In this document: positions 978-46,931 of the stretch, in pieces
Position numbering within the stretch: the first letter of the stretch is position 1
Layout: each line of letters begins with the position of its first letter
DNA from: Mesorhizobium sp.
GTDB lineage: Bacteria > Pseudomonadota > Alphaproteobacteria > Rhizobiales > Rhizobiaceae
NCBI GenBank assembly: GCA_004017535.1
Contig: SAJS01000001.1
Location: 496,001 to 560,000 of the forward strand
Direction: 5' to 3'
DNA length: 64,000 bases
Translations under genes and position numbers: made by a program
The notes under the pieces: generated by a model
What the model was told of the DNA's origin: nothing
Database searches by the model: none
What the model saw: the letters and a program-made list of their open reading frames with translations, nothing else

Positions 978-1655
978 TCAGTAGCTGCCGCGCGACATCC
1001 ACACGGCAGGAACTGTCTTGAAGATGATGCGAATGTCCTCGATCAATGACCAGTTCTCGACATAGTGGCGATCGAAGGCGACCCGCGTGTCATAGGATAC
1101 GTCGTTGCGGCCGCTCACCTGCCACAGCCCGGTGAGACCCGGACGTGACTTCAGGTAATAGACAGCGGCGCTGCCATAGATTTCCAGCTCGTCGCGCACG
1201 ACGGGGCGCGGGCCGACAAGGCTCATGTCACCCTGCAGGATGTTGAGGATCTGCGGCAGCTCGTCGAGGCTGAGCTTGCGAAGCACCGCGCCGACGCGGG
1301 TGACGCGCGGATCGTTCTTCAGCTTGCGCGTCGCGATCCATTCGGCGTTGGCCTCCGGATTGGCCGCCAGATAGGCGGCAAGCACACGCTCGCCGTCCGG
1401 CACCATGGTGCGGAATTTCAGGCAGGAGAAAATCCTGCCGCCACGGCCGATTCGCTTGTGGCCGTAGAAGATCGGACCGTTGTCCGAAAGCTTGACCAGC
1501 AAGGCGACCATCAGGAAAAGCGGGCTGAGCAGAATCAGCCCGGACAGGGAACCGACGATATCGAAACTGCGTTTGATTAGACCGCCGATGGGGGGTGGAA
1601 AATCAACGCCGACCTGCGCAAAACCCGCATTAGCCGACTTGGCGACATCCCTCAT
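978..1655 (-). CDS. exoY: Undecaprenyl-phosphate sugar-1-phosphate transferase that primes EPS synthesis (ExoY)
   Basis: This is a 225-residue bacterial sugar transferase. It transfers a hexose-1-phosphate, galactose in the S. meliloti homologue, from a UDP-sugar to undecaprenyl phosphate, which starts the repeat unit. One membrane segment lies at about 30-55 ([17 protein letters not shown]). The family motifs follow in order: [10 protein letters not shown] (80-89), [11 protein letters not shown] (130-140), SLVGPRP (145-151) and [13 protein letters not shown] (171-183). Full length matches the short ExoY class, which lacks the extra N-terminal membrane domain of WbaP. ATG at 1655. It is read away from exoX across a 607-bp promoter region that holds TGC-rich palindromes, and exoF lies 73 bp downstream. 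Confidence 0.93.
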
Positions 1656-1706: not shown

Positions 1707-1721
1707 TGCTGCAGCGCAACA
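1707..1721. promoter_or_regulatory. Candidate PhaR/AniA-like operator upstream of exoY
   Basis: TGCTGC-AGC-GCAACA lies 52 bp before the exoY start codon. It fits a TGCTGC-N3-GCAGCA dyad that recurs before several EPS genes in this window. The resemblance to CTGC-N3-GCAG sites of the PHB-responsive repressor PhaR/AniA is from memory, so the regulator is inferred. Confidence 0.4.
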
Positions 1722-2262: not shown

Positions 2263-2535
2263 ATGTCTCTGCCAAAATTCGTCACAGGCATGATGTTCGC
2301 GCTGGCGATCGTCATCGGCTGGTCTTATTTCGACGGCGCGTCGGCGGGCACCATCCTCTTGCGTGCCATTGTCTGCGCCGTGATTATCCAGGCAGGCTAT
2401 TTCCTTCTGGTCTTCGCCATGATCGGCAGGGCCACGCCGACATCGGCCGACAAGATCCGCGAAGCCGACCGCGGGGCAATCCTGAACAAGGTCGCCGACG
2501 GCGAAAAGCTAAGCGCCAGGCGCAGCCTCCACTGA
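2263..2535 (+). CDS. exoX: ExoX/SyrA-like small membrane protein, predicted EPS production repressor
   Basis: This is a 90-residue protein with two membrane segments, at about 5-22 (FVTGMMFALAIVIGWSYF) and 29-54 (hydrophobic, ending FLLVFAMIG), and a charged C-terminal tail. This matches the small rhizobial EPS production repressor family, in which ExoX acts after transcription to lower ExoY-dependent synthesis. I chose ATG 2263 because GAGAGG lies 9 bases upstream; an in-frame ATG at 2233 has no such site. Its last 27 bases overlap the end of the oppositely oriented lasso exporter gene. The position next to exoY supports the call. Confidence 0.72.
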   Translation: MSLPKFVTGMMFALAIVIGWSYFDGASAGTILLRAIVCAVIIQAGYFLLVFAMIGRATPTSADKIREADRGAILNKVADGEKLSARRSLH

Positions 2536-4416
2536 CCGTTCGACCGGCGCCGCGACCAGCCCGGCATCGACCGGGGGCGCGGTTTCTCGCTCGGCCTGCT
2601 CGCCGGATAGCATCTTGGCCAGCCGGCTGCCGGCTTTTGCCTTCAGCCGCCGATATCGTCCGACCTCGACGATGCGCCCGTTCTCGATGGCCACGACCCA
2701 GTCGGCGAAGGCGATCATCGATGGCCTGTGCGCGATGGTCAGGATCGTCATCCGGCCGCGCAAAGACTCGATCGATTGCGCGATCAGCGACTGGTTCTGC
2801 CAGTCGAGCGCGCTCGTCGCCTCGTCGAGGATGAGCAGCGATGGCTTGCGCAGCAGCGCCCGCGCCAAGGCGATGCGCTGCCGCTCGCCGCCGGAAAGTC
2901 GGACACCGCGGTCGCCCACCACCGTCTCCAGTCGCGATACCAGTCGTTCCACGAAATCGGCCGCATGGGCGCTGCGCAGGGCCGCCCATAGCTCCTCGTC
3001 GCTGGCCTCAGGCGCGGCAAGACGAAGATTGGCTGCGATCGTGTCATGCAGCAGGAACACATCCTGCGGTACATAGGCAACCTGATCGCGCCACGCCCTG
3101 CGATTTTGCGCGGTGATCTCCACGCCGTCGGCCAGGATCCGGCCGCTGGTGGGTTCGAGCAAGCCGAGCAGCATGTCGGCGATCGTGCTCTTGCCGGAAC
3201 CGGAAGGGCCGATCAGCGCCGTCACCTTGCCGGCAGGCAGGTCGAAGTTGATATTGCTGACCACCGGTCTTGCGTCACCCTCGCCATAGGCGAATGATAC
3301 GTCGCGGATGCTGAGGCCGGTCTCGAGCGAAAGTCTCGCGCCTCGTTCGGCCATGCTTTGGGTCGGTTCGCGCTCGGCGTCGAAGCGGGCGTGAAGGGCT
3401 TGCATCGACGCGTAGGCCGGCAGGTTGATCAGCACCTGCTGGGTTTGAAGCTGCATGTCCATGAAGCGCGGCGAGACCCGCATGAAGACCAGGAGCAGCA
3501 CAACGATCTCGGCAAGCGACAGTTGGAAGCGGACCAGCGCGATGTAGATGAAGAGGCTGAGCCCGATCACGCTCGCCATCTGGAATAGGGCGGTGCCGAG
3601 CGAAGAGTTGCGGACAAAGGCGATGTTGTCGGCCTTCATCCTGTCCAGCGTGGCGCCGAGCTCGGCGAAATAGCTCGCTTCGACATTGAGGCTCTTGGCG
3701 ACCTTGATGCCGCCGAGGAACTCGGAAACCGTGCGATACTGGTCCTGGCGATTGCCGGTCAGCATGCGGCCATAGGCGCTGGCGCGTGCCCGGAACGGCT
3801 GCAGCGCGATCAGCAGCACCAGGCCGATGAGGATGGCGAAGGACGTCATCACCGGCGAGATGAACAGCGAGACCACGAGATAGCCGACGAGAAGCAATGT
3901 CGCCTGGGTGAGCATCAGCAGCGAGAAGGCGGCAACCTGCACGCGGTCGACGTCACCGTTCAGGGCGTGGTCGAGGTCGGAGCTGCGGATGCGGGTGAAA
4001 ACGCCCCAGCGCGCCCGACCGATGCTTTCGAACAGGTTCATGCGCACGCGGTTGACGAAATCGTAGAGCAGCCGCGCCATGTAGACCGACTTGAAGCGGT
4101 TGAAAATCGCCTGCAGCGCCACCAGCGCGACAAGCAGGCAGAGCACGGTGGCCAGCGACAGCGTTCCGCCGGGTACCAGCCAATGCAAGGCTTCCGGCAC
4201 TCGAACTGCGTAATCCTGTTCGGCCCTGCCGATCAGGCGCAGCAGCGGGACGAGCAGCAGGATCGAGATGCCCTCGGTGAGGCTGCCCAGGATCAGGAAG
4301 GTCAGCGCCGTCGCCGTGCGTCGCCCGCCGACATGGGCCATCATGGCGCCGAAGCCGGTGATGTCCCGCAACAGCGACAGGCGAAACTTCGAGGACCAGC
4401 CCATGTCCCGGCTCAT
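2509..4416 (-). CDS. Lasso-peptide exporter, ABC half-transporter with fused permease and ATPase (LasD type)
   Basis: This 635-residue protein has an N-terminal six-helix permease (about 35-330) followed by an ATPase domain. The ATPase shows Walker A GPSGSGKST (near 400), signature LSGGERQR (near 500), Walker B LLILDEATSALD (near 520) and the switch His in IAHRPS. It should dimerise in the inner membrane and export the mature peptide, which usually also gives self-immunity. There is no N-terminal peptidase domain, which is expected because the leader is removed by B2. Its ATG overlaps the kinase stop codon (ATGA), so it is the last gene of the A-B1-B2-C-kinase-D operon. The last 27 bases are antisense to exoX. 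A lipid or glycan substrate cannot be excluded from sequence alone. Confidence 0.85.
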   Translation of the reverse strand: MSRDMGWSSKFRLSLLRDITGFGAMMAHVGGRRTATALTFLILGSLTEGISILLLVPLLRLIGRAEQDYAVRVPEALHWLVPGGTLSLATVLCLLVALVALQAIFNRFKSVYMARLLYDFVNRVRMNLFESIGRARWGVFTRIRSSDLDHALNGDVDRVQVAAFSLLMLTQATLLLVGYLVVSLFISPVMTSFAILIGLVLLIALQPFRARASAYGRMLTGNRQDQYRTVSEFLGGIKVAKSLNVEASYFAELGATLDRMKADNIAFVRNSSLGTALFQMASVIGLSLFIYIALVRFQLSLAEIVVLLLVFMRVSPRFMDMQLQTQQVLINLPAYASMQALHARFDAEREPTQSMAERGARLSLETGLSIRDVSFAYGEGDARPVVSNINFDLPAGKVTALIGPSGSGKSTIADMLLGLLEPTSGRILADGVEITAQNRRAWRDQVAYVPQDVFLLHDTIAANLRLAAPEASDEELWAALRSAHAADFVERLVSRLETVVGDRGVRLSGGERQRIALARALLRKPSLLILDEATSALDWQNQSLIAQSIESLRGRMTILTIAHRPSMIAFADWVVAIENGRIVEVGRYRRLKAKAGSRLAKMLSGEQAERETAPPVDAGLVAAPVERSVEAAPGA

Positions 4417-5384
4417 CCTGTCCCGGACGCCAGATCGGCTTCGATCACGGCGACCGCCTCATCGATGCGGGCGAGCCCAGCCGGCACTTCCAGCCGGCTG
4501 ACTCCGGTTCGCCCGGCGATCTGCGCGCATTGGCGCAGGTGAAGGGCGGCGAAGCCGCCCGGCAACGCCTGCCGGCCGAAGCGCGTGGCATAGGAGAATT
4601 TGATGATTGCCGGCAGCGCGGCCGCACCCGTCAGTGGGGAGATCGCCGCTCGCACGCCCCGCTCGAGCACATAGATGCGCGATACCGGCACCGCCTCGGC
4701 AGCAAATCCCTCACGCAGGCGATGCTGCGCCTTGTCGATCTGCGGATGAACCTGCGGGCGCACCTCCGCCTGTTCGAGGCGAATGGCGCTGGCCGCGTCC
4801 GCTGCAAGCTTGAGCTGCGGAAATCCGGGAAGGATCATCGGCCGGTCCGGGTCGGACAAATCCAGCGCCACGACATCGTCGGTGAGCAGTCGATGGCCGG
4901 CGCCGATCATGGCGCCGGCCGTCGTCGATTTGCCGGCGCCCTTGTCGCCCATGAAGATCACGCTTTTGCCGTTGACGGCAATGGCGCTGGCATGCAGGAC
5001 GAGCAGTCCGCGTTGGTGCAGGGCGAGCGCCATCACCGGCCCGAGCAGCGGAAAGGCGAGCAGCGGATCTTCGACCCCTGGCGCCGGATCGACATCGATG
5101 CGGTTGGCGCTGCTGATCATGAACGTGCCGACCGCCTGCCAGGAAAGATACTGGCGCGTCGGCTCGAACCGGAAGGCGGCGGCCTGGGATGCCGTGCCGG
5201 GAAAATCGACCCGCCCGACCGCGATCTCCAGATCCGGGGTCGCCGGAGCCGTCGGTTCCAGCTCCGGCAAGACCACTTCGGAGCGGATCACCAGTCCGTA
5301 GGCCTTGTAGAAACGGCGGACACGCTTGCTCGCCGCCGCCATTTGCGGCTCGGGCCGCGCAAGGGAAGCGATCGGAAGGTTCAT
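4413..5384 (-). CDS. HPr-kinase-like lasso peptide kinase, predicted to phosphorylate the peptide's C-terminal serine
   Basis: This is a 323-residue protein. The C-terminal half has an HPr kinase/phosphorylase-like P-loop, GDKGAGKST (146-154), preceded by LVLHASAIAVNGK and followed by LLTDDVVALD (166-175). The N-terminal half is specific to this family. In paeninodin-type lasso clusters such kinases phosphorylate the terminal serine of the precursor, and the precursor here ends in serine. ATG 5384 overlaps the cyclase stop (ATGA) and follows GAGGAA; a GTG at 5414 would add ten residues. Its neighbours are the cyclase upstream and the exporter downstream. It lacks the phosphorylase-type HPr domain arrangement, so a role in sugar PTS control is unlikely. 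The family is clear; the substrate is inferred. Confidence 0.82.
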   Translation of the reverse strand: MNLPIASLARPEPQMAAASKRVRRFYKAYGLVIRSEVVLPELEPTAPATPDLEIAVGRVDFPGTASQAAAFRFEPTRQYLSWQAVGTFMISSANRIDVDPAPGVEDPLLAFPLLGPVMALALHQRGLLVLHASAIAVNGKSVIFMGDKGAGKSTTAGAMIGAGHRLLTDDVVALDLSDPDRPMILPGFPQLKLAADAASAIRLEQAEVRPQVHPQIDKAQHRLREGFAAEAVPVSRIYVLERGVRAAISPLTGAAALPAIIKFSYATRFGRQALPGGFAALHLRQCAQIAGRTGVSRLEVPAGLARIDEAVAVIEADLASGTG

Positions 5385-7294
5385 GCGGGGCTTCCTCGAA
5401 TTTGCCGCAGCCACAGCGACAGCGAAACCGCGCGCCAGACATGCTGGACATCCGGCAGGGTCGCCCGCTCGGGCTGGCGCAGCATCCGGTCATAGACCGC
5501 GGCCACTGCAGGCAGGTTCACATAGGGCGCGATCCGCTCGCTGTCGGATATCAGCAGCCTGTCCAGAAGCTCTCGGTGGTTGCCGAGCATGCCATTGACC
5601 AGGTTGGCGGTGAAATCGATCTTGTCGCGCCGCCATTGCACCGCCGTCGGCAGAACGCCTTGCATGGCCCGGCGCAGCACATGGCGGCCGAAACCGTCCT
5701 TGAGCTTTTCCTCGCCGGGCATCGCCAGGCAGAATTCGACGAGCGGCTTGTCCCAGAACGGATAGCGCGGCTCGACGCCGAAATTGGCGGCGGCCTTGTC
5801 GAGCACTTCGAAAGCGTGCGGCACTAGCCCGGTCGACAGAAGCCAGCGATGCGTCAGCGCTTCGCTGGCGCTGACGGCGGCGGGCATGTGGCCGCTGCGA
5901 TGAAAGCGCTCGGCAAGATCGGTGCGCCCGGCAAGATCCGGATTGACCAGACCCGCCCAGGCGGCGCGCGGCGCCTGCGCCGGCCCGCGCCGCACTTTGC
6001 GGACAAGGCGTTTGGCCGCAGCCCTCATCCTGGCGATCCGCCAGGCCGGCCCATAGATGGTCAGGAATTTGAAATAGAGGGGAAGCATGCCGTCGCCATA
6101 GGTGTTGGCCGCACTGCGCAACTCGCGCCAAAGCTCCAGCCACCTGCCGGCATTGGCGAGCTCGTGGAGGTGTCCGTGGCCCTGCGAGACGACCTCGTCG
6201 CCGCCGTGCCCGTCGAGCAGCACCTTGACGCCCTTTGCGCCTGCCGTCCGGTAGAGATCGCGCGTCAAGGACAGGCCGGGCGCCAGGAACGTGCCTTCCT
6301 GCTCCTCCAGGATGCGCTCGAACTCGGCGAAGGGCGCGTAATTGCCGACGGCAATAAGCGTGGCGTCGAGCGGATTGCCGTCGAGCACCGCGTCGATGAA
6401 CGGCTTCTCGTCCATGGACGAGCCCTTGTCGAACACCAGCGAGAAGGTCTTGAGCTTCGGGTTGCCTGTCGCCGCTGCCCTGAGGCTTGCAAGGCAGGTG
6501 ATCGAGGATGAATCGAGGCCGCCGCTCAGCATGGCGCCGACAGCCGGCGTGCCGCGCATCCGGTTCGCCACCGATTGCGCGAAGAGATGCCTGAATTCTT
6601 CGGCCGCGTCAGGCGGCGGCGGTCGCTGTGACGGCTCGATCTGCCAGTAGCGCCGCAGCGCAATACCGTGGTCCGCCACCATCATGCTGTGTCGCGCCGG
6701 CAAGCGGAAGATTTCGGCGTAGGGCGTGGCCTGCGGATCATCCGGCAGGCCGGCGAGAAAACCGGAAATCTGGTGCTCGCTGAGGCGCCTGCCGACGCCG
6801 TCCAGCGCCAGGATCGGCCCGATCTCGGAGGCGAAAGCAAAGCGCCTTGCGGTCGAATGATAGTAGAAGGGTTTGACGCCGAAATGGTCGCGCGCGCAAA
6901 ACAGCGCCTGGCGCTCGCGGTCCCATATCGCGAAGGCGAAGTCGCCTTGCAGGTAGGTCGGGCAAGCCTCGCCCCATGTCAGGTAGGCGTGCATGATGAG
7001 CATCGCGTCGGCAATCGACCGGTCGCGCAGGCCCAGCCGCGCCATAAGCTCGTCGCGATTGTCCAGCCGGCAATCGGCGGTGATGGCGAGCTTGCCGCCG
7101 GCCAACGCCAGCGGACCGGGCCCGTCGTCCCCGGTCGTGTCGAGCCAGGCGTGGCCGAGCGCGACGCTGCCCTCCGTCCGCCATGAGCTGCCGTCGCGGG
7201 CACGATGGCGCATGCGCGAAAGCATCTGCTGGATATCGTTGGCCGCCGCGGGCCTGCCGTTGTCGATATGCAGGATGCCGGCCACGCCGCTCAT
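5381..7294 (-). CDS. Lasso cyclase (LasC), asparagine-synthetase-like macrolactam synthetase
   Basis: This 637-residue protein has an AsnB fold: an N-terminal class II glutamine-amidotransferase-like domain (1 to about 210) and a synthetase domain with the ATP pyrophosphatase loop SGGLDSS (257-263). In lasso biosynthesis it adenylates the ring acid (predicted Asp9 of the core) and joins it to the N-terminal amine. The start reads MSGVAGI where genuine asparagine synthetases read MCGIAGI, so the catalytic Cys2 of the glutaminase is replaced by Ser. That fits an enzyme that needs no ammonia. The B2 stop is 3 bases upstream and the kinase start overlaps its stop. A primary asparagine synthetase role is disfavoured by the missing Cys and by the context. 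Confidence 0.9.
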   Translation of the reverse strand: MSGVAGILHIDNGRPAAANDIQQMLSRMRHRARDGSSWRTEGSVALGHAWLDTTGDDGPGPLALAGGKLAITADCRLDNRDELMARLGLRDRSIADAMLIMHAYLTWGEACPTYLQGDFAFAIWDRERQALFCARDHFGVKPFYYHSTARRFAFASEIGPILALDGVGRRLSEHQISGFLAGLPDDPQATPYAEIFRLPARHSMMVADHGIALRRYWQIEPSQRPPPPDAAEEFRHLFAQSVANRMRGTPAVGAMLSGGLDSSSITCLASLRAAATGNPKLKTFSLVFDKGSSMDEKPFIDAVLDGNPLDATLIAVGNYAPFAEFERILEEQEGTFLAPGLSLTRDLYRTAGAKGVKVLLDGHGGDEVVSQGHGHLHELANAGRWLELWRELRSAANTYGDGMLPLYFKFLTIYGPAWRIARMRAAAKRLVRKVRRGPAQAPRAAWAGLVNPDLAGRTDLAERFHRSGHMPAAVSASEALTHRWLLSTGLVPHAFEVLDKAAANFGVEPRYPFWDKPLVEFCLAMPGEEKLKDGFGRHVLRRAMQGVLPTAVQWRRDKIDFTANLVNGMLGNHRELLDRLLISDSERIAPYVNLPAVAAVYDRMLRQPERATLPDVQHVWRAVSLSLWLRQIRGSPA

Positions 7295-7297
7295 CGG

Positions 7298-7732
7298 TCA
7301 CGACCCATGGTCGACAAGGTGGGTAAATCCGTTGATCGAGCCGCCAAGCACGATGTGATTGCCGCTCATCAACCAGGCATGCGCCTTGAGCTCGCTGCCT
7401 GTCTCCCTTTCGATGCCGATGCTGATCCTCGAGGCCTTGCCCTGGCGGGCAAGCAGATATTGCCCGGCCAGCGCCTGGGTGAGGCAACTGGCGCCAGGCA
7501 CCAGCCGCGCGGCGGCGGCAACGCCCCAGGCGACGCGCCGCAGGTCGGCGATGCCGGCGTCGTGCCTCGCATCAAGCCGCGTGATCAGGCCGCGGACGCG
7601 GTTGTAGGAGGAAAGCGTCAGCGCGAGCCGCACCACGCTCACCATCGCCAGGCAGCGCGCCAGAAACAGCACCTCCCGGCCGCTCAGCCAGCGGAGCCTA
7701 AAACGCGTCGCGATCCTTCGGGTTCGCTCCAT
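7298..7732 (-). CDS. Lasso leader peptidase B2, transglutaminase-like cysteine protease
   Basis: The protein is about 144 residues with the Transglut_core3 pattern of B2 proteins: GASCLTQAL with catalytic Cys83, then AHAW with His118, followed by VLGG. It cuts the leader from the precursor after the conserved Thr-x pair, working on substrate presented by B1. Start choice is uncertain. ATG 7732 has AAGG just upstream and gives a normal family N-terminus (SGREVLFLARCL). ATG 7759 and ATG 7798 are in frame, but they fall at the edge of, or inside, a palindromic repeat (7756-7800). It is the third gene of the operon, 3 bases before the cyclase. Confidence 0.87.
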   Translation of the reverse strand: MERTRRIATRFRLRWLSGREVLFLARCLAMVSVVRLALTLSSYNRVRGLITRLDARHDAGIADLRRVAWGVAAAARLVPGASCLTQALAGQYLLARQGKASRISIGIERETGSELKAHAWLMSGNHIVLGGSINGFTHLVDHGS

Positions 7733-7755
7733 GCGCCTTAGGTCATTGATTTTAC

Positions 7756-7800
7756 GCATGTCTTTATCCCGAAACCGGTCCCCACTTTCGGGAGACATGC
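7756..7800. repeat. Rhizobial intergenic palindrome inside the lasso operon, between B1 and B2
   Basis: GCATGTC...GACATGC arms flank an inner CCCGAAA/TTTCGGG pair. The same layout (CCCGAAAAGTGG...GGTTTTCGG between ATGATC-like arms) occurs at 45281-45330 and 57628-57676, so this is a dispersed element. Its insertion separates B1 from B2 and makes the B2 start ambiguous. Confidence 0.7.
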
Positions 7801-7801
7801 T

Positions 7802-8101
7802 TTAGACCAGTTCCTCACTGTGGAGCCTCGCAAGCCCTGCTTCAGTCAGCCCCTTCAGCAAGCCCTCGACATCGGCCTTGCAGCGCTCGGCATCGACATT
7901 GTAGCGCGCTAGCACAGCGCCGCGGATATCGAGGACCGATCGCGGCTCCTGGATCTGCTCCCAGACGAAGGCGCCGACGCTGTTCAGACTGTAATAGACA
8001 TTGGATTTGAGGTGGAGCAGCGCCAGTCCGGCGCCGAATTCACAAGCCACCGCCTCGCTTGTCGCGACCACGCGGTCATGGTCCGAAGGGTTCCAGTGCA
8101 T
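7802..8101 (-). CDS. PqqD-like lasso leader recognition protein B1 (RiPP recognition element)
   Basis: This is a 99-residue protein with the PqqD winged-helix pattern: ALLHLKSNVYYSLNSVGAFVWEQI in two strands and a helix, then a helical C-terminal half ending LLKGLTEAGLA. B1 proteins bind the Y-x2-P-x-L part of the leader and hand the precursor to B2. ATG 8101 follows GAGG at a spacing of 7; an upstream in-frame start at 8230 would add a Gly/Pro-rich stretch that runs through a hairpin and is unlikely. It follows the precursor gene after a 154-base gap with a strong hairpin. Confidence 0.88.
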   Translation of the reverse strand: MHWNPSDHDRVVATSEAVACEFGAGLALLHLKSNVYYSLNSVGAFVWEQIQEPRSVLDIRGAVLARYNVDAERCKADVEGLLKGLTEAGLARLHSEELV

Positions 8102-8176
8102 CCTAAAACCTCGTTGCTGGCCCGCCGCGCCCTTGGACCCTGGTCGGGGATCGGTTGCCTGCGATCCTCGGCCGGA

Positions 8177-8202
8177 AGCCGGGGGACAAAAGCCCCCCGG
8201 CT
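8177..8202 (-). terminator. Strong hairpin between lasso precursor and B1 (attenuator or mRNA-stabilising stem)
   Basis: On the transcribed strand a perfect 9-bp stem AGCCGGGGG/CCCCCGGCT closes the loop GCTTTTGT. No U-run follows, so it is more likely a partial terminator or 3'-end stabiliser that favours precursor mRNA over the enzyme genes. The same loop octamer occurs in the exoK-ugd hairpin at 12684-12709. Confidence 0.7.
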
Positions 8203-8255
8203 CGCCTGTTGGTAGTATCCGGAGCCCCAACTTAGACTCCCGGGTGCCTGCAAGC

Positions 8256-8408
8256 TTACGAGAAAGTCAGCTCACCGACCGGCGTGTGTGCGGGAAAGCT
8301 CACGTCGAGCGCCGTCGAGCCAGCGCCACCCTGCGTGATGGATTCGATCGAACCATGAACCGTCAAGCTAGGGGTTTCGTACTCATGCTTCTCAACATTC
8401 TGTTCCAT
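8256..8408 (-). CDS. Lasso peptide precursor (LasA), 50 residues
   Basis: This short gene lies directly upstream of B1 and starts at ATG 8408 after GGAGAG. The leader (residues 1-26) contains YETPSLTVHGSIESITQ, an exact match to the lasso leader pattern Y-x2-P-x-L-x3-G-x5-T-x with Thr25 at position -2. The predicted 24-residue core begins GGAGSTALD and ends GELTFS. Gly1 and Asp9 would form a nine-residue macrolactam ring, leaving a 15-residue tail. There are no cysteines, so class II. My arithmetic gives a neutral monoisotopic mass of about 2299.11 Da for the lasso form and 2379.08 Da with one phosphate. The GGAG opening resembles microcin J25; the Asp9 ring and terminal Ser resemble paeninodin. 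The cleavage site is predicted, not shown. Confidence 0.9.
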   Translation of the reverse strand: MEQNVEKHEYETPSLTVHGSIESITQGGAGSTALDVSFPAHTPVGELTFS

Positions 8409-8907
8409 TTTACTCTCCAATTAAGGACTGGAAGCGGCCGCAGAATGCCGCCAGCATATGGCCATGCTGCGATGCGATTGCTGCATGGCAACATTCATGA
8501 GTCAAGCGTGATTTACCAAGCATTTATCAATTCTCGGTTGCGCCTGCCTTCCTTGGTGATGAAGCCGCGAGCATTGTCATCGTAGTCCTTAACTGCCCGG
8601 GAATTCAACCGCCTGTTCTCGCCGATCATATAAGCAATTGATTTATTTAAATTAATTTTTGAGCGATAAATCCGTCCTGCGGAGGTGAAGAACTTGCTGG
8701 AAAAAGCCGTCGCTTTTCGGCACGCAGCATCGTCCCGGAGGCTTGTCTTCAAAAGTGATTAAGTGTGTGCGATTTTAAACGCTTAGGTTGTGCAACTGAA
8801 GCGGTCATTACCGCCTCTTGAACCGTCTAGGTAAATTTCCCGGTGTTTTTCTTCGCAAGTGCGGTATAGATCGGGCGGGCGGCATTTTGCGGAGAGCGAC
8901 ATCGGGC
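8409..8907. promoter_or_regulatory. Divergent control region of the lasso operon and the nucleotidyltransferase gene
   Basis: About 500 bp without a supported gene. It includes two tandem TGC palindromes (8465-8493), a CTTGAC hexamer read toward the lasso operon (8501-8506 on the complement), and an AT-rich island at 8628-8672 that stands out from the GC-rich background. The CTTGAC has no good -10 element 17 bases later, so the promoter itself is unproven. Confidence 0.6.
8465..8493. promoter_or_regulatory. Tandem candidate PhaR/AniA-like operators upstream of the lasso precursor
   Basis: TGCTGC-GAT-GCGATT (8465-8479) abuts TGCTGC-ATG-GCAACA (8479-8493). The second copy matches the N3-spaced dyad seen at the EPS genes. 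They lie 57-85 bases before the precursor start and next to a CTTGAC hexamer, where a repressor would block initiation. Confidence 0.42.
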
Positions 8908-10110
8908 ATGGCGATGCAGGATGGCTCCTATGAAAGGCTGCGTGCCGCCGGCTGTGCCGATGAAGTCGCCTATGTGCAGGCCTGTCTGAGGCTGTTTTTC
9001 ACACCCGGCGTCGACGCCCCCGACGGCCGGGCCGATATGCCCGCGCCGACGATCTCGGCGGCCCATGTCGCCGACATCGCAAGGCTGAACAAGGTCGCCG
9101 TGTTCATGCTCAAGGCGCTCGCGCGTGCTGCCGCCGGCGGAACGCCTCCCGGGTTGCCTGGCTGGCTCGACGGCTATCGGCGGCGCACCATGTCGATGAA
9201 CGCCGCCTGCATCGGCGATTCGGTGGCTATCGATCGCGTGCTTCGCGACAGGCGGGTCGATTTTGTCTTCCTCAAGGGACCGCTCCAGCAGCACGGGCTC
9301 TATGGCGACCATTTCATGAAGCCTTCCGGGGATGTCGACATACTGGTTTCGCCGGCGAGCTTCGCCGAGGCGCGCGCGGCTTTGCGGACCATCGGCTACG
9401 AGGTTGCCGGCAAGTCGCGCTCGGTCTGGTGGGTGCGCTTCCTCGGCGAGCAGCACATGGTCCGCGAGGATGGCGCGAGAGCGTCGACGGTCGACCTCCA
9501 TCATCGGTTGCAGCAGCCGGGTTCGCCAAGCCCGCGCGACATAGACGGCTTCCTGCGCCGCAAGCGCGAGGTCGAGGTGGCCGGCGCGGTCATGCCGATC
9601 ATCTCGGCGGCCGACACCTTGCTTTTGTCGTCGATCAGCGTCGCCAAGGCCTTTTTCAACCGCGAGCCTTGCGCCGGCTATGTCTGCGATGTCAGGGCCA
9701 GCGCCAGCCGGCTGAGTGAGGCCGAGCAGCAGATGGTGCTCGATCACGCCGCCGAGCAGGGCCTTGCGGATACGCTGCTTCTGGGGCTGCGCGCCGCCGA
9801 CGTGCTGCTTGGCGCCAGCGGCACGCTGCTGTCGGATCGCGCCGCCCGCATCCTGGCGCGCATCGGCAACGCCGACCTCTTCCACATGGTGATCGCGCCC
9901 TGGCTCGCGTCGCTGCGCTGGCCGCAGCGACGCCATGTCCTGTGGGAACTGTGCGGCCACGAGCCCGTCCGTTACCTGGCAGAGGCCGGCTGGGCAGCCT
10001 CCGCCGACCTCAGCCGGCGCATCTTCGAGCGGCCGGCCGCTGTCGCGCCGGCGCCGGGCGGCACGATCAAGATCGCGGGCGGGACAGCCACTCATGCAAG
10101 CGAAAGGTGA
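8908..10110 (+). CDS. Nucleotidyltransferase-family protein associated with the lasso cluster (NTP_transf_5 type)
   Basis: This 400-residue protein carries the minimal nucleotidyltransferase pattern: FLKGP (121-125), then SGDVDILV (140-147) with the metal-binding Asp-x-Asp, then a long helical C-terminal region with VDLHHRL. The family (uncharacterised nucleotidyltransferase, PF14907 type) is often found beside lasso or PqqD/HprK gene sets, and its substrate is unknown. I chose ATG 8908 because GGAGAG lies upstream; a TTG at 8818 is possible. It is divergent from the lasso operon, and the next glycosyltransferase starts 4 bases after its stop, so it could also be counted with the EPS genes. 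A paralogue sits at 33696-34721 beside the second set. Confidence 0.75.
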   Translation: MAMQDGSYERLRAAGCADEVAYVQACLRLFFTPGVDAPDGRADMPAPTISAAHVADIARLNKVAVFMLKALARAAAGGTPPGLPGWLDGYRRRTMSMNAACIGDSVAIDRVLRDRRVDFVFLKGPLQQHGLYGDHFMKPSGDVDILVSPASFAEARAALRTIGYEVAGKSRSVWWVRFLGEQHMVREDGARASTVDLHHRLQQPGSPSPRDIDGFLRRKREVEVAGAVMPIISAADTLLLSSISVAKAFFNREPCAGYVCDVRASASRLSEAEQQMVLDHAAEQGLADTLLLGLRAADVLLGASGTLLSDRAARILARIGNADLFHMVIAPWLASLRWPQRRHVLWELCGHEPVRYLAEAGWAASADLSRRIFERPAAVAPAPGGTIKIAGGTATHASER

Positions 10111-11140: not shown

Positions 11141-11230
11141 TTCCGTATCGTCCCTGAAGCCGCCGGCCCTCAAAAAATCCGCAATCGCAAAACTATGATG
11201 TTGCCTAGTCGCCGCGGGGGTGGCAGTCTA

Positions 11231-11245
11231 TGCTGCAATGCAGCA
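11231..11245. promoter_or_regulatory. Perfect TGC palindrome upstream of the coiled-coil gene
   Basis: TGCTGC-AAT-GCAGCA is a perfect dyad ending 19 bases before the ATG at 11265. It is the best-conserved copy of the recurring motif and would overlap the transcription start or leader. Confidence 0.45.
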
Positions 11246-16528: not shown

Positions 16529-16563
16529 TGCTGCGGTGCACCTAAAATATTGCGATGCAGCAA
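16529..16563. promoter_or_regulatory. Two candidate TGC operators before the 16663 glycosyltransferase
   Basis: TGCTGC-GGT-GCACCT (from 16529) and TATTGC-GAT-GCAGCA (16548-16562) lie 16 and 25 bp apart by edge and centre, within the 160-bp gap between two transferase genes. They suggest a separate promoter for the second transferase. Confidence 0.38.
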
Positions 16564-20570: not shown

Positions 20571-20851
20571 GGGGAAACCTCGTTTCGCGTCCGTGGCCAG
20601 GCCAGCGGCGGTTAAAACGGCATGTTTTGCCGAAGTGCTGCCACGCGATCCGTCGCGATCCTGGCGTGCCGTACCACGCTGGTAACCAACGTCGAACTCG
20701 ATCGACGCCAGGCAGCGTTGAGAGTAGCGTATGATTTTTGCAGTGCAACAAAAAACGTGTGGGCGTCTGCTACGCCGCACCAAAATTGTTGCGATGCAGC
20801 AAAAGCTGTACTAGCATCCCCGATGGGTGGGCCGAACATCGGTCGAGTTTC
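20571..20851. promoter_or_regulatory. Divergent exoV-like/exoL promoter region with two TGC operators
   Basis: TTTTGC-AGT-GCAACA (20736-20750) and TGTTGC-GAT-GCAGCA (20787-20801) sit 51 bp apart in a 281-bp divergent gap. The second copy is near perfect. A pair this far apart could allow looping or independent control of each direction. No small gene is evident. Confidence 0.5.
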
Positions 20852-29258: not shown

Positions 29259-29636
29259 TGATTTGCGCCTCGATATCATGCCGGATGCGAACAATTCCAC
29301 ACCGGCGCTCCAGGCGGCCAGACGAGCGATTTTCCGCTTCCACGAAACGGTGAACCCCTCTCGGCGGGCTTCAACGGATGACGGAACAGGGTGGGACCGA
29401 GCGACGGCAGGGTGCGCGGCTCGCCGCCGGCCGCTACCGACCGCTTGACCGCGACGGTAGCAGGGCATCGCGGTATGTCGACGCCGCCGAATATCGCCTC
29501 TTGTTGAGCCATGCCGTGCCTTTGGTATGGCCCCCCAATCGCAAACTTTAAAGTCCAATGCTGCGCTGCACAACAAGCGATTGCACGGCAGGACAAATTG
29601 GTGAATCTGTCGTTAACGCGGCCGTCTGCCGGGCCG
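29259..29636. other. Intergenic region upstream of the phosphatase gene
   Basis: About 378 bp without a supported gene. It holds one TGC palindrome (29559-29573), about 300 bp before the phosphatase start, and an AT-rich patch at 29540-29555. A long frame on the minus strand continues through it but has poor composition and no ribosome site. Confidence 0.6.
29559..29573. promoter_or_regulatory. Candidate TGC operator near the phosphatase/prpE gap
   Basis: TGCTGC-GCT-GCACAA matches one half-site exactly and the other partly with N3 spacing. It is far from both flanking start codons, so its role is less certain than that of the EPS copies. Confidence 0.25.
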
Positions 29637-32000: not shown

Positions 32001-32288
32001 ATGGCCGAGATTGGTTCCAAAACGGTGCTTCGGATGGCGGACGATGCGTCCGTCCAGCATGTCGGCGATGGCGCCGTCGTGCTGTTGGCGCGCAGCGGCC
32101 AGCTTTACACCTGCAACGACACGACCGAGGCCTTTCTCGACAAAGTTGATGGCGCGCGCAGCCTCGACCAGATCATCGACCTGTTGTCGGACGAATTCGA
32201 GGTCGACAAGGCAACGCTTGACGAGGATATGGCCGAATTGGCCGCCGAGCTGGTGGCCGAAGGCATCCTCGCCGACCCGGGCATGTGA
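32001..32288 (+). CDS. PqqD-family peptide-binding protein of the second lasso-like set
   Basis: This 95-residue protein has the PqqD/B1 fold pattern: VVLLARSGQLYTCNDTTEAFLDKVDG, then an acidic helical half with LLSDEFEVDKATLDEDMAELAAELVAEGIL. Compared with the first B1 it lacks the YYxLN motif (YTCND instead), so leader specificity should differ. ATG 32001 follows GGGGAG. Its stop overlaps the B2 start (TGATG). I recall TIGRFAM naming of a PqqD protein in an 'HPr-rel-A' system with a HprK-related kinase, which would fit; this was not checked. Confidence 0.8.
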   Translation: MAEIGSKTVLRMADDASVQHVGDGAVVLLARSGQLYTCNDTTEAFLDKVDGARSLDQIIDLLSDEFEVDKATLDEDMAELAAELVAEGILADPGM

Positions 32289-32719
32289 TGACCGACGGGC
32301 CGGTCCTGCGCGCCCTGTTCCGCGCCCATTTGTGGCTCAGCGCCAGGCTGCTTCCGGTGCTGGTCGGCCGGCGCGATTTCGAAAGCGTGTTGAAACTGGC
32401 GCCGCTGCGCTTGCCCGCGCCCTATCGTGACTTGCCCTGGACCTATATCGTGCAGCGCGTCAACCGAACGGTGCGGCGGCCCTGGTTCATGCGCGACCGC
32501 AGATGTCTTCGCGAGGGTCTGCTCGGCTTCCGCTTTCTGCGCATGGCCGGTCTCGACCCGGAGCTGCGTTTCGGCGTCGATGCCAAATCGATGCACGAGC
32601 CGCGCCTCTCGGCGCATTGCTGGGTCTGCCTCGACGGCAAGCCGGTGGTCAGCGACAGTCAGCCCGGCATGGTGGAGATCTACCGCCATCCGCCCAGCGT
32701 GAAGGCGTCCGCTGCTTGA
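32288..32719 (+). CDS. B2-like transglutaminase-fold protein of the second set
   Basis: This 143-residue protein matches lasso B2 proteases in the catalytic part: RRCLREGLLGFRFLRMAGL with Cys73 and SAHCWVCLDGKPVVSD with His110 and Asp123. The N-terminal half is longer and more basic than in the first B2. The start overlaps the PqqD stop, and the HprK-like gene starts 11 bases after it. With no precursor or cyclase nearby, it may cut a different peptide or protein. The residues needed for protease activity appear to be present. Confidence 0.8.
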   Translation: MTDGPVLRALFRAHLWLSARLLPVLVGRRDFESVLKLAPLRLPAPYRDLPWTYIVQRVNRTVRRPWFMRDRRCLREGLLGFRFLRMAGLDPELRFGVDAKSMHEPRLSAHCWVCLDGKPVVSDSQPGMVEIYRHPPSVKASAA

Positions 32720-32730
32720 GCGACCGGACA

Positions 32731-33708
32731 ATGACCTTCTGCTACGACCTCAAAGGGCAGGTCATAAGCGTCACCGCCACCCGCGCCGACCTCTGGCCGA
32801 GCTTCGACCTGATGCTCGGCGCCCTGCGCGTGGAGGAGGCTGCCCAGCCCGGCTTTCGTGTCGACATCATCGAAATGATTGATCTGCAGGAAAACCCTGA
32901 AGGGAAATTGGCTTTCGATGGCGAAGTGCCCTTCGATGGCCATTGCCGGATGATCGACGCCGGAGACGTCTTCCACCTCGTCTTTCCAGGTCAGCAGACG
33001 CTGTCGATCCGCGACGAGGAGGGCAGGGCCGAAATCCGCGTCCATCCGGACAGCAAGATCAAATGGACGCTGCTGATGATGGTGCTGGATGCCGCGCTCG
33101 ATGCCGGAGGGCAGCACATGCTGCACACGGCCGGCCTGACGCTGCCGGGCAGCGACGCGCTTGTGCTGATCCATGCGCCGAGCGGCACCGGCAAGTCGAC
33201 GACGTCGCTGGCGCTCGCCTCGCAGGGCTTCGGCCTCTGTTCCGACGACGTCATGATCCTCAGGGTGACACAGGACGGCGTCACGGCCTGGGGCATGCCG
33301 CGTAAAGTGAAGATCCATCGCAACACCGCGGCGATGCTGCCTTTCGTGTCGCCCTGCCTCGGCGAGACATGGGATGCCGAAGGCGAGCAGGCCGTGTCGC
33401 TCGATCGCCTTGGCGAGATCATCCGTGTCGAGGATGCACGCGCCAGGCCGATCGCGGCTCTTCTTCATCTCGCCCGCTCGGCCGATGGCGAGACAAGGCT
33501 GGTGCCTATGGCCAGGACCGATGCTATGGTGGCTTTGGCGGCTGACAATGTGAGGACGGGCATGACCGGGCTTTTGCCGCTGCAGAAAAGGCGGATGGCG
33601 ACGATCGCGGCCCTGGTCAAGACGGTGCCGACCTTCTCGCTGGAAGCGGGCGCGCGGCCCGTCGAAGCGACGCAACTGATCCGCGCCGCGCTGCGTCAGG
33701 CCGGATAG
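32731..33708 (+). CDS. HprK-related kinase of the second set
   Basis: This 325-residue protein has the P-loop HAPSGTGKST (148-157) preceded by HTAGLTLPGSDALVL and followed by GLCSDDVMIL (168-177), the HprK-like arrangement. The N-terminal 110 residues are a mostly beta domain that differs from the first kinase. ATG 32731 is chosen; a TTG at 32716, overlapping the B2 stop, would add five residues. The stop lies inside the convergent nucleotidyltransferase gene (13-bp overlap). The phosphate acceptor is unknown; serine of a peptide or protein is the family precedent. Confidence 0.8.
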   Translation: MTFCYDLKGQVISVTATRADLWPSFDLMLGALRVEEAAQPGFRVDIIEMIDLQENPEGKLAFDGEVPFDGHCRMIDAGDVFHLVFPGQQTLSIRDEEGRAEIRVHPDSKIKWTLLMMVLDAALDAGGQHMLHTAGLTLPGSDALVLIHAPSGTGKSTTSLALASQGFGLCSDDVMILRVTQDGVTAWGMPRKVKIHRNTAAMLPFVSPCLGETWDAEGEQAVSLDRLGEIIRVEDARARPIAALLHLARSADGETRLVPMARTDAMVALAADNVRTGMTGLLPLQKRRMATIAALVKTVPTFSLEAGARPVEATQLIRAALRQAG

Positions 33709-34721
33709 GGCCGCGCCCGCGCCAGCCGCTGCACCCAGCGGAAAGCGTCGCGGCTGAGGCGCGAGCGCAGCTTTTCGCGCGAGTTGACCCGCAGCAGCAT
33801 GTTGCCGGTGATCAGCCATTTCGCCAGCCTTATCGAGAGGTCCGGCTTGATGCGGTCGGCAAGCTCGATCGCGCGCGGCGCGCCGAACAGGCGCCCGGTC
33901 ACGTTGAGGACCGTCGCCAGCTCGAGCTCGATGCCGGTCATGCGGGCGGCCTCCAGCAGGCGCGCTTCGTCTTCCGGCGATTTCAACGCCCGTACGCCTT
34001 GCAGCACGTCGACGCAGAGCTGCAGCCGATGGAACTTGTGGCCGCCGGCCGCGTGAACGATGGCGATGGTGAGCAGCGCCGCCGGCGTGTCGGTCGCGCC
34101 ATTGTCGATCGCTTGCAGCTCGCGAAAGCCGAGCGACAGGCGCCGGCGCATGCCGGTGTCGTGCACCAGGTTGCCGTGCAATTCGATCAGCAGGCTGGAA
34201 TTCTCTTTCTCCAGCCATTTGAATTCCTGCAGCGCGTGAGACTCGGTCTCGCCGCTGCCGAGCTCGAAGCCGCATTCGGCGATCGTCCTGTTGGCTTCCT
34301 CGATGCCGGCCGGGTCGACGAGAATGTCGATGTCGGTGAACGGCCGGTCGGCAAGCTGGCTATAGAGCCTGCGTGCGAACACCGGCCCCTTCACGATCCG
34401 GGCCGGAACGCCTTTCGCCGCCAGCGCCTTCATGATGCGGTCGCCATGATATTGCAGCAGCATCGATTGCCCGGTCGCCATCGTCATCTGGTCGCGCAAC
34501 TCGGCAAGCTTTTGCCGCAGACCCGCTTCTTTCGGCAGATTGGCGTCGCCGCGTTCCCGGAGCTTGCGCAGCACGATCGGCAACACGCCGTGGAACTCTG
34601 CATTGGCCAGCAGCGCCAACAGCCCGGCGGGCGGAACGTCCTTGTCCCAATCGGCGGGCGCCTCGGGGTCGGCAAGGGTGATCAGCAGTTTTTCCTGGGC
34701 AGGCGAAAGCTCGGGCAGCAT
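33696..34721 (-). CDS. Nucleotidyltransferase-family protein of the second set (NTP_transf_5 type)
   Basis: This 341-residue protein carries ARIVKGPVFARRLYSQLADRP, then FTDIDILVDP with the Asp-x-Asp metal site (130-132), then LLIELHGNLV. It is a paralogue of the protein at 8908-10110. Both are small single-domain nucleotidyltransferases without recognised substrates. It is convergent with the kinase gene and its start region (34722-34890) contains dispersed palindromes. Pairing of this family with PqqD/B2/HprK genes twice in one window supports a functional link. Confidence 0.75.
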   Translation of the reverse strand: MLPELSPAQEKLLITLADPEAPADWDKDVPPAGLLALLANAEFHGVLPIVLRKLRERGDANLPKEAGLRQKLAELRDQMTMATGQSMLLQYHGDRIMKALAAKGVPARIVKGPVFARRLYSQLADRPFTDIDILVDPAGIEEANRTIAECGFELGSGETESHALQEFKWLEKENSSLLIELHGNLVHDTGMRRRLSLGFRELQAIDNGATDTPAALLTIAIVHAAGGHKFHRLQLCVDVLQGVRALKSPEDEARLLEAARMTGIELELATVLNVTGRLFGAPRAIELADRIKPDLSIRLAKWLITGNMLLRVNSREKLRSRLSRDAFRWVQRLARARPYPA

Positions 34722-46860: not shown

Positions 46861-46931
46861 TGTTTAGTAATTTGTTTAGTGATGCTCTTTTTACTAAACA
46901 ACGCAAGCGAATTCGTTGCTGCGCCGCAGCA
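46861..46931. promoter_or_regulatory. Control region of the ABC/dha operon: TGTTTAGT operators and a TGC palindrome
   Basis: TGTTTAGTAA (46861-46870) and TTACTAAACA (46891-46900) are exact inverted copies, and TGTTTAGT recurs directly at 46873-46880, giving three half-sites for one regulator. A perfect TGCTGC-GCC-GCAGCA dyad follows at 46917-46931. All lie 122-192 bp before the binding-protein start. The regulator gene is not in the window. Confidence 0.6.

Follow-up and report, generated by a model that had tools for sequence, protein, structure and literature searches.

A kinase-type lasso peptide cluster at a fixed place in the exo locus of Mesorhizobium, with a promoter predicted to be controlled by AniA/PhaR

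A 64,000-nucleotide stretch of Mesorhizobium DNA (the window, or 64-kb window) carries what is almost certainly a genuine lasso peptide biosynthetic cluster, with a predicted product, inside a locus for exopolysaccharide (EPS). The operon lies entirely on the minus strand in the order A-B1-B2-C-K-D, from 8408 down to 2509, and a nucleotidyltransferase-like gene, NT (NTP_transf_5), diverges from it. The initial annotation of this DNA had described a complete kinase-type lasso cluster within an EPS locus, and family models, conservation and neighbours agree with it; the gene order and coordinates that it gave were borne out by open reading frames (ORFs) and family models. Taken jointly, a lasso cluster, predicted phosphorylation of the peptide C-terminus and predicted co-regulation with EPS by AniA/PhaR, leaving any role in EPS aside, form a reading that we hold to be moderately probable; our estimate is lowered because the score of the regulator motif is often reached by chance in shuffled leaders. 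The cluster consists of the following genes.

8256..8408, minus strand: A, precursor of 50 amino acids (leader 1-26, core 27-50), with a predicted Gly1-Asp9 ring and a C-terminal Ser; above the NF033528 and NF033521 cut-offs, present in 66/66 loci, and backed by the ratio of non-synonymous to synonymous substitution rates (dN/dS)
7802..8101, minus strand: B1, PqqD-like leader-binding protein; PF05402, 67.6 bits; TbiB1 and TfuB1 matches
7298..7798, minus strand: B2, leader peptidase (Transglut_core3), start uncertain; NF033537, 64.3 bits, cut-off 33
5381..7294, minus strand: C, asparagine-synthetase-like lasso cyclase; NF033535, 764.9 bits, cut-off 525
4413..5414, minus strand: K, HprK-like precursor kinase with H-K-D-D residues, start uncertain; PF07475, 33.2 bits
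2509..4416, minus strand: D, ATP-binding cassette (ABC) exporter; PF00005 and PF00664; present in 66/66 loci
8818..10110, plus strand: NT, PF14907 nucleotidyltransferase-like protein, divergent from A; 108.2 bits; D172, D174, D226; travels with the block

The lasso match goes beyond chance because NCBIfam models pass their cut-offs on A (NF033528, 34.5 bits against 33; NF033521, 22.9 against 19), B2 and C. The B1, B2 and C proteins occur all together, and the precursor joins a lasso leader motif to Gly1 and an acidic residue within core positions 7-9. As had been proposed, the leader fits Y-x2-P-x-L-x3-G-x5-T-x and is followed by Gly1 and Asp9. B1 scores under the NCBIfam B1 cut-offs, yet it matches PqqD and, in the PDB, the solved lasso B1 proteins TbiB1 (E 4.7e-8) and TfuB1 (E 5.8e-4). 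Three junctions are as close as first described, B1/B2 and B2/C being 3 bases apart and K/D overlapping by 4; C and K overlap by 34 when the listed GTG start is taken. The mass given earlier was reproduced on recomputation (core minus water 2299.112, [M+2H]2+ 1150.563, +39.98 when phosphorylated). The suggestion that so short a precursor gene may be unannotated is unlikely to matter, as two NCBIfam models score it above their cut-offs. A candidate for a better precursor elsewhere in the same genome was rejected: it reaches 13.8 bits with NF033521, under the cut-off of 19, which leaves a single site above it. The catalytic set of lasso B2 proteins is Cys-His-Asp. Two observations count against the assignments of individual enzymes: in B2, Cys and His are aligned in the 15 rows shown and the third catalytic residue is not assignable, and K falls under every curated cut-off (PF07475, 33.2 vs 33.3; TIGR04352, 43.6 vs 200).

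The precursor was then followed through related genomes. A cyclase-based scan gave at least 77 loci among the matches listed, namely 66 Mesorhizobium or Rhizobiales-type records, L100 from a distant alphaproteobacterial metagenome-assembled genome (MAG), nine cyanobacteria and one Pyrinomonadaceae MAG. The initial annotation had proposed conservation of the 50-codon frame in relatives as a check on the precursor, and the frame stood up to it: it is intact and upstream of B1 in 66/66 Mesorhizobium-type loci, and it accompanies the cyclase in all 102 of the 146 genus genomes in which the latter is found at E 1e-120. Across 67 rows (the 66 loci and the window), the core residues that never vary are Gly1, Asp9, Phe12, Pro13, Ala14, Thr16, Pro17, Thr22, Phe23 and Ser24. 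Pooled over 63 distinct precursor sequences, dN/dS comes to 0.019 in the leader and 0.186 in the core (ring 0.310, tail 0.130), next to 0.188-0.286 for B1, B2, C, K, D and NT (every third locus, 22 loci each), and the variable sites at codon positions 1, 2 and 3 number 15, 13 and 44, out of 50 each. Because of this third-position variation and the dN/dS pattern, we take the frame to be under selection. The core is strongly constrained and near-invariant across relatives.

By its gene content, the cluster is of a type already known, the kinase-tailored lasso cluster exemplified by paeninodin and pseudomycoidin. In the cited passages of PMC9266682, the C-terminal Ser of the precursor is the target of kinases of this class, which require a His-Lys-Asp-Asp set. 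The C-terminal residue is Ser in 67/67 precursor rows, and H141, K162, D179 and D180 of K are invariant in 18/18 aligned kinases, the cyanobacterial ones included. By analogy, K very probably phosphorylates the C-terminal Ser. The site is likely rather than certain because BsfK, a kinase of another cluster, targets Ser3 instead of the C-terminus according to the portion of PMC10368454 cited here, a precedent that speaks against our assignment. As in its characterised relatives, K would phosphorylate the C-terminal Ser of the 50-residue precursor, B1 would bind the leader, B2 would cleave after Gln26, C would link Gly1 to Asp9 with the tail threaded, NT would attach a sugar or nucleotide to the phospho-Ser, and D would export the peptide. 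Residues D172, D174 and D226 of NT are invariant in 10/10 sequences.

Pseudomycoidin of Bacillus pseudomycoides (PsmK, PsmN) is the known system that combines, as here, a lasso set, a kinase for a C-terminal Ser and a nucleotidyltransferase-type gene, and PsmN, annotated as a nucleotidyltransferase, is responsible for a hexose on the phospho-Ser (PMC9266682, passages on this peptide). It differs in host phylum and in the exo-locus setting, and PsmN is likened to NT by annotation. Paeninodin (PadeK) and Sphingobium SyanA/SyanK, compared by description, share the C-terminal Ser and the H-K-D-D kinase; unlike for the window cluster, neither an exo-locus link nor an AniA box appears in the passages of PMC9266682 that describe them.

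What sets the window cluster apart from a routine kinase-tailored one is the constancy of its peptide, its fixed position in the exo locus and the shared regulatory box. Its exo neighbours include the following.

2-925: ExoF-like Poly_export protein
978..1655, minus strand: ExoY-like sugar transferase; PF02397, 215.7 bits
11732..12655, plus strand: ExoK endo-beta-glycanase; NF052392, 425.9 bits, cut-off 350

Further neighbours are a GT2 enzyme, a nucleotide-sugar dehydrogenase, glycosyltransferases and a flippase-like protein, and we read an NTP_transferase protein as ExoN-like and a Wzz/AAA protein as ExoP-like. Contig ends aside, the order GH16-HYP-GT2-NT / A-B1-B2-C-K-D-SugT holds across the 66 loci (L074 ends before the NT side and L040 before the SugT side; the GH16 match of L084 covers only 23 residues). 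The locus in the distant MAG, L100, has the whole order from GH16 to SugT at 35-62% identity. In two loci from other genera of the family, L114 and L115, SugT lies on one side and NT with HYP on the other; within the stretches fetched, L114 gave no GT2 match and neither gave a GH16 match. A further diverged locus, L009, is a short contig carrying A to K only.

The genomes that lack the cyclase show what the locus looks like without the cluster. GH16 was searched for in 21/44 of them (20 plus G469), or 22 genomes with G442, of which 18 matched; 16 of the 20 have GH16, and loci were fetched from 12 of those 16. SugT, GT2, HYP and GH16 are kept in all 12, and the block from NT to D is absent as a unit: none of NT, A, B1, B2, C, K and D had a match in these loci (matches below 45 bits were dropped, except for A). 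This persistence of the exo neighbours is what one would expect if the block simply sat at a permissive site separating divergent exo operons, whose regulation it borrowed, with no link to EPS, as is the breakage of the cyclase in G442 and G469. The three diverged clusters outside the genus, L100, L114 and L115, occupy the same spot and the promoter of A is conserved, both of which argue against so loose an association, and we regard it as falling only a little short of probable.

In a tree of the four neighbours, built by a quick method from 81 rows that exclude L074 and L040, the presence of the block requires 3 changes, compared with a shuffle mean of 11.4, and lasso-bearing L064 is placed within a lacking clade. 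Flank and cyclase distances correlate with r 0.92 over 2080 pairs. On the tree and this correlation, the block is for the most part passed on together with its locus, and at times it is lost or regained whole. The comparison shows that the set forms a single block with a fixed position in a succinoglycan-type exo locus and that the two are mostly co-inherited.

The promoter of A provides the second tie to the exo genes. Four elements, all on the minus strand, are relevant.

8409..8553, minus strand: conserved non-coding promoter and 5' leader of A; 82/145 positions at least 95% identical
8501..8506, minus strand: CTTGAC, -35-like; box 30 nucleotides (nt) away in 66/67 rows
8465..8476, minus strand: AniA/PhaR-like box of the A promoter; the window site fits 19/21 positions of the S. 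meliloti consensus
1707..1718, minus strand: AniA/PhaR-like box before the exoY-like gene

Conservation in the 67 rows is concentrated in the 145 nt before A; the next 185 nt upstream have 11 positions at that level of identity. A sigma-70 scan found no promoter-like site. The cited sections of PMC12542648 give the S. meliloti AniA/PhaR consensus as WNWD2NYGCRNYGCRNH2WNW and describe PhaR as binding and repressing the exoY, exoL and exoH promoters and as being sequestered by polyhydroxybutyrate (PHB); the form of the motif in B. diazoefficiens is NGCN3GC[GA]N3 (PMC10888616, part cited). As in S. meliloti, a box precedes exoY here and PhaR is encoded in the genome (TIGR01848, 147.3 bits, cut-off 109.45). 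The descriptions of AniA/PhaR exo control in those sections of PMC12542648 are without lasso genes, whereas the lasso promoter of the window bears the box.

In 66/67 rows, the box xGCnnnGCAGCA is found 30 nt from CTTGAC, and at this fixed place 66/67 leaders fit 19 or 20 of the 21 consensus positions, so that the A promoter carries a conserved AniA/PhaR-type motif in these 66 rows. The triplet within the box is of 14 kinds, 13 of them purine-any-pyrimidine (R-N-Y), and these 13 account for 66/67 rows; its middle base is T in 33, C in 14, G in 11 and A in 9, and it begins with A or G in 66 and ends with C or T in 67. In L114 and L115 the core lies at the same distance from CTTGAC as in the Mesorhizobium-type rows. 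All of 75 exoY leaders (66 lasso-bearing, 9 lasso-lacking) contain TGCRNYGCA and score 19/21. An AniA/PhaR-like 12-mer, TGCRNYGCASMA, is matched 11 times at 8 places in the window vs 1.28 expected, and 0/100 shuffles reached 11; of the seven matches that were placed, six are intergenic when 11268 is taken as the start of HYP (the GTG listed for HYP at 11220 would put two of these six inside it) and one lies within an ORF. Over the genome, the 13-mer TTGCRNYGCAGCA has 22 sites vs 3 for its reversed control.

Several points weigh against control by AniA/PhaR. The window box misses two of the 21 consensus positions, and L095, at 17/21, has lost the core. With one shuffle per leader, the best place anywhere reached at least 19 in 10/67 leaders. 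No core was found within 250 nt in L100 and L009, two of the four diverged clusters outside the genus. The longer form YGCnnnGCAGCA, with its second GCA, occurs in only 47/75 exoY leaders; the lasso box of the window begins with C and so falls outside the 11 matches of the 12-mer; and the 9-nt core is degenerate, with 79 occurrences in the window. Since shuffled leaders often reach 19, the motif score by itself offers modest support, and more weight falls on the R-N-Y pattern and the fixed place. We consider it probable, on this sequence evidence, that AniA/PhaR controls the lasso promoter. The A promoter would then be repressed as exoY is in S. meliloti, and stored PHB would titrate the repressor, such that the peptide would be made as EPS synthesis rises.

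That another regulator binds the conserved box instead, or that the box works at the RNA level, strikes us as rather unlikely. The degeneracy of the core leaves room for it, as does an A leader with predicted hairpins, in which 2/23 pairs have double changes; set against these are the R-N-Y symmetry, kept while the middle base is any of four letters, the agreement with the published rhizobial AniA/PhaR motif (PMC12542648, consensus as cited), and the unremarkable folding of the window leader (z -1.43). On those same figures no conserved RNA structure is claimed for the leader, and its one match to a known RNA family, Lambda_thermo (16.5 bits vs 50, E 0.87), is taken as chance. A box AATTGATTAA thought to be shared with exoY was dropped, being present in 3/66 lasso-bearing and 0/9 lasso-lacking exoY leaders.

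Further AniA/PhaR-like 12-mers lie at 2017-2028, 11231-11245, 16529-16562 and 20790-20801 within the exo locus, at 29559-29573 just past it and at 46917-46931 away from it.

One more element lies within the operon.

8177..8202, minus strand: G+C-rich hairpin between A and B1, a possible attenuator or processing element

A hairpin with 6 or more perfect pairs occurs at a fixed place, 40-75 nt past the stop of A, in 46/68 rows (the 67 rows and L100), compared with 218/3400 mononucleotide shuffles. The hairpin may keep the precursor above the level of the enzymes.

A near-invariant peptide in 102/146 genus genomes, fixed in the exo locus and apparently sharing its control box, opens a connection between the peptide and the slime to testing, and the product of the exo locus is an exopolysaccharide of a kind important for legume symbiosis. 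The peptide would be a secreted factor of the EPS-producing state: a signal, an EPS modulator or a competition factor. A role tied to EPS beyond mere co-location is nevertheless a tentative proposal. More specific, and unlikely in this full form, is a dedicated EPS partner under carbon-storage control, in which AniA/PhaR would sense PHB and switch the lasso operon in concert with the exo genes; throughout Mesorhizobium, the peptide, phosphorylated and perhaps glycosylated, would have a part in legume signalling, matrix behaviour or the assembly of EPS. Against our overall reading stands the dispensability of the cluster: 44/146 genus genomes have no cyclase at E 1e-120 (G469, with its broken copy, included), and in G442, counted among the 102, the cyclase is split over two frames. 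It also counts against these readings that product, phosphorylation, regulator binding and function are all predictions. Loci L138 (G442) and L139 (G469), where the cyclase gene is broken, retain matches to A, B1, B2, K and D; either decay is underway or the assembly is in error.

Among lasso peptides whose activity is known, many are antibacterial, and few are known to have a role beyond killing or inhibiting competitors. The peptide might accordingly be a microcin-like bacteriocin that sits in the exo locus by chance and whose core is kept to fit a conserved target, a possibility to which the ABC exporter lends itself and which we do not favour. Its near-invariant core, divergence that tracks the flanks and presence in so many genomes of the genus are not what a bacteriocin leads one to expect; nor did the conserved neighbours include a recognisable separate immunity gene, a function that the exporter could fill.

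Beyond the genus, nine cyanobacterial clusters (L101, L102, L104-L108, L110, L111) have cyclases 36-41% identical and a K match in 9/9. The precursor tail reads FP..TP....TFS in L101, L102 and L108, and L104 has the same with six further residues. The precursor follows C in the eight clusters with a tblastn match, and L105 also has an ORF with the motif after C. Unlike the window cluster, the cyanobacterial flanks examined gave no SugT, GT2 or GH16 match. A cyanobacterial lasso cluster is described in the cited part of PMC9332814. The window cluster was not recognised among the best-ranked titles and abstract starts of the open-licence literature on lasso peptides and rhizobial exo loci, subscription papers and cluster databases lying outside this scope.

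The precursor profile matches 104/146 genus genomes; 103 of these score at least 99 bits, and G432 scores 29. All 102 cyclase-bearing genomes are among the 103, the remaining one being G469. The weak match in G432 comes from L152, a different lasso cluster with the order C, A-like ORF, K-like, B1-like; the exo locus of G432 (L147) is without the block. The cyclase cut-off was passed by nine of the 394 genomes sampled from the family, and three of the nine, G066, G188 and G172, belong to other genera; of 384 others sampled from the class, none had a cyclase match at E 1e-100. At most 2 and 3 candidates per genome, respectively, were scored, so rarer or more diverged copies could be missed.

At 32001-34721, the window holds a PqqD-like gene (95 amino acids), a lasso-B2-like gene (NF033537, 67.7 bits, cut-off 33), an HprK-like kinase and a minus-strand PF14907 gene. 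It was set aside as a second lasso cluster, neither a cyclase nor a precursor being recognised there. The kinase of this cassette occurs in 97/146 genus genomes (91 with the cyclase and 6 without; 11 have the cyclase alone and 38 neither, kinship being ignored). The Pyrinomonadaceae MAG locus, L109, has two precursor-like ORFs after one cyclase, both with a terminal Ser.

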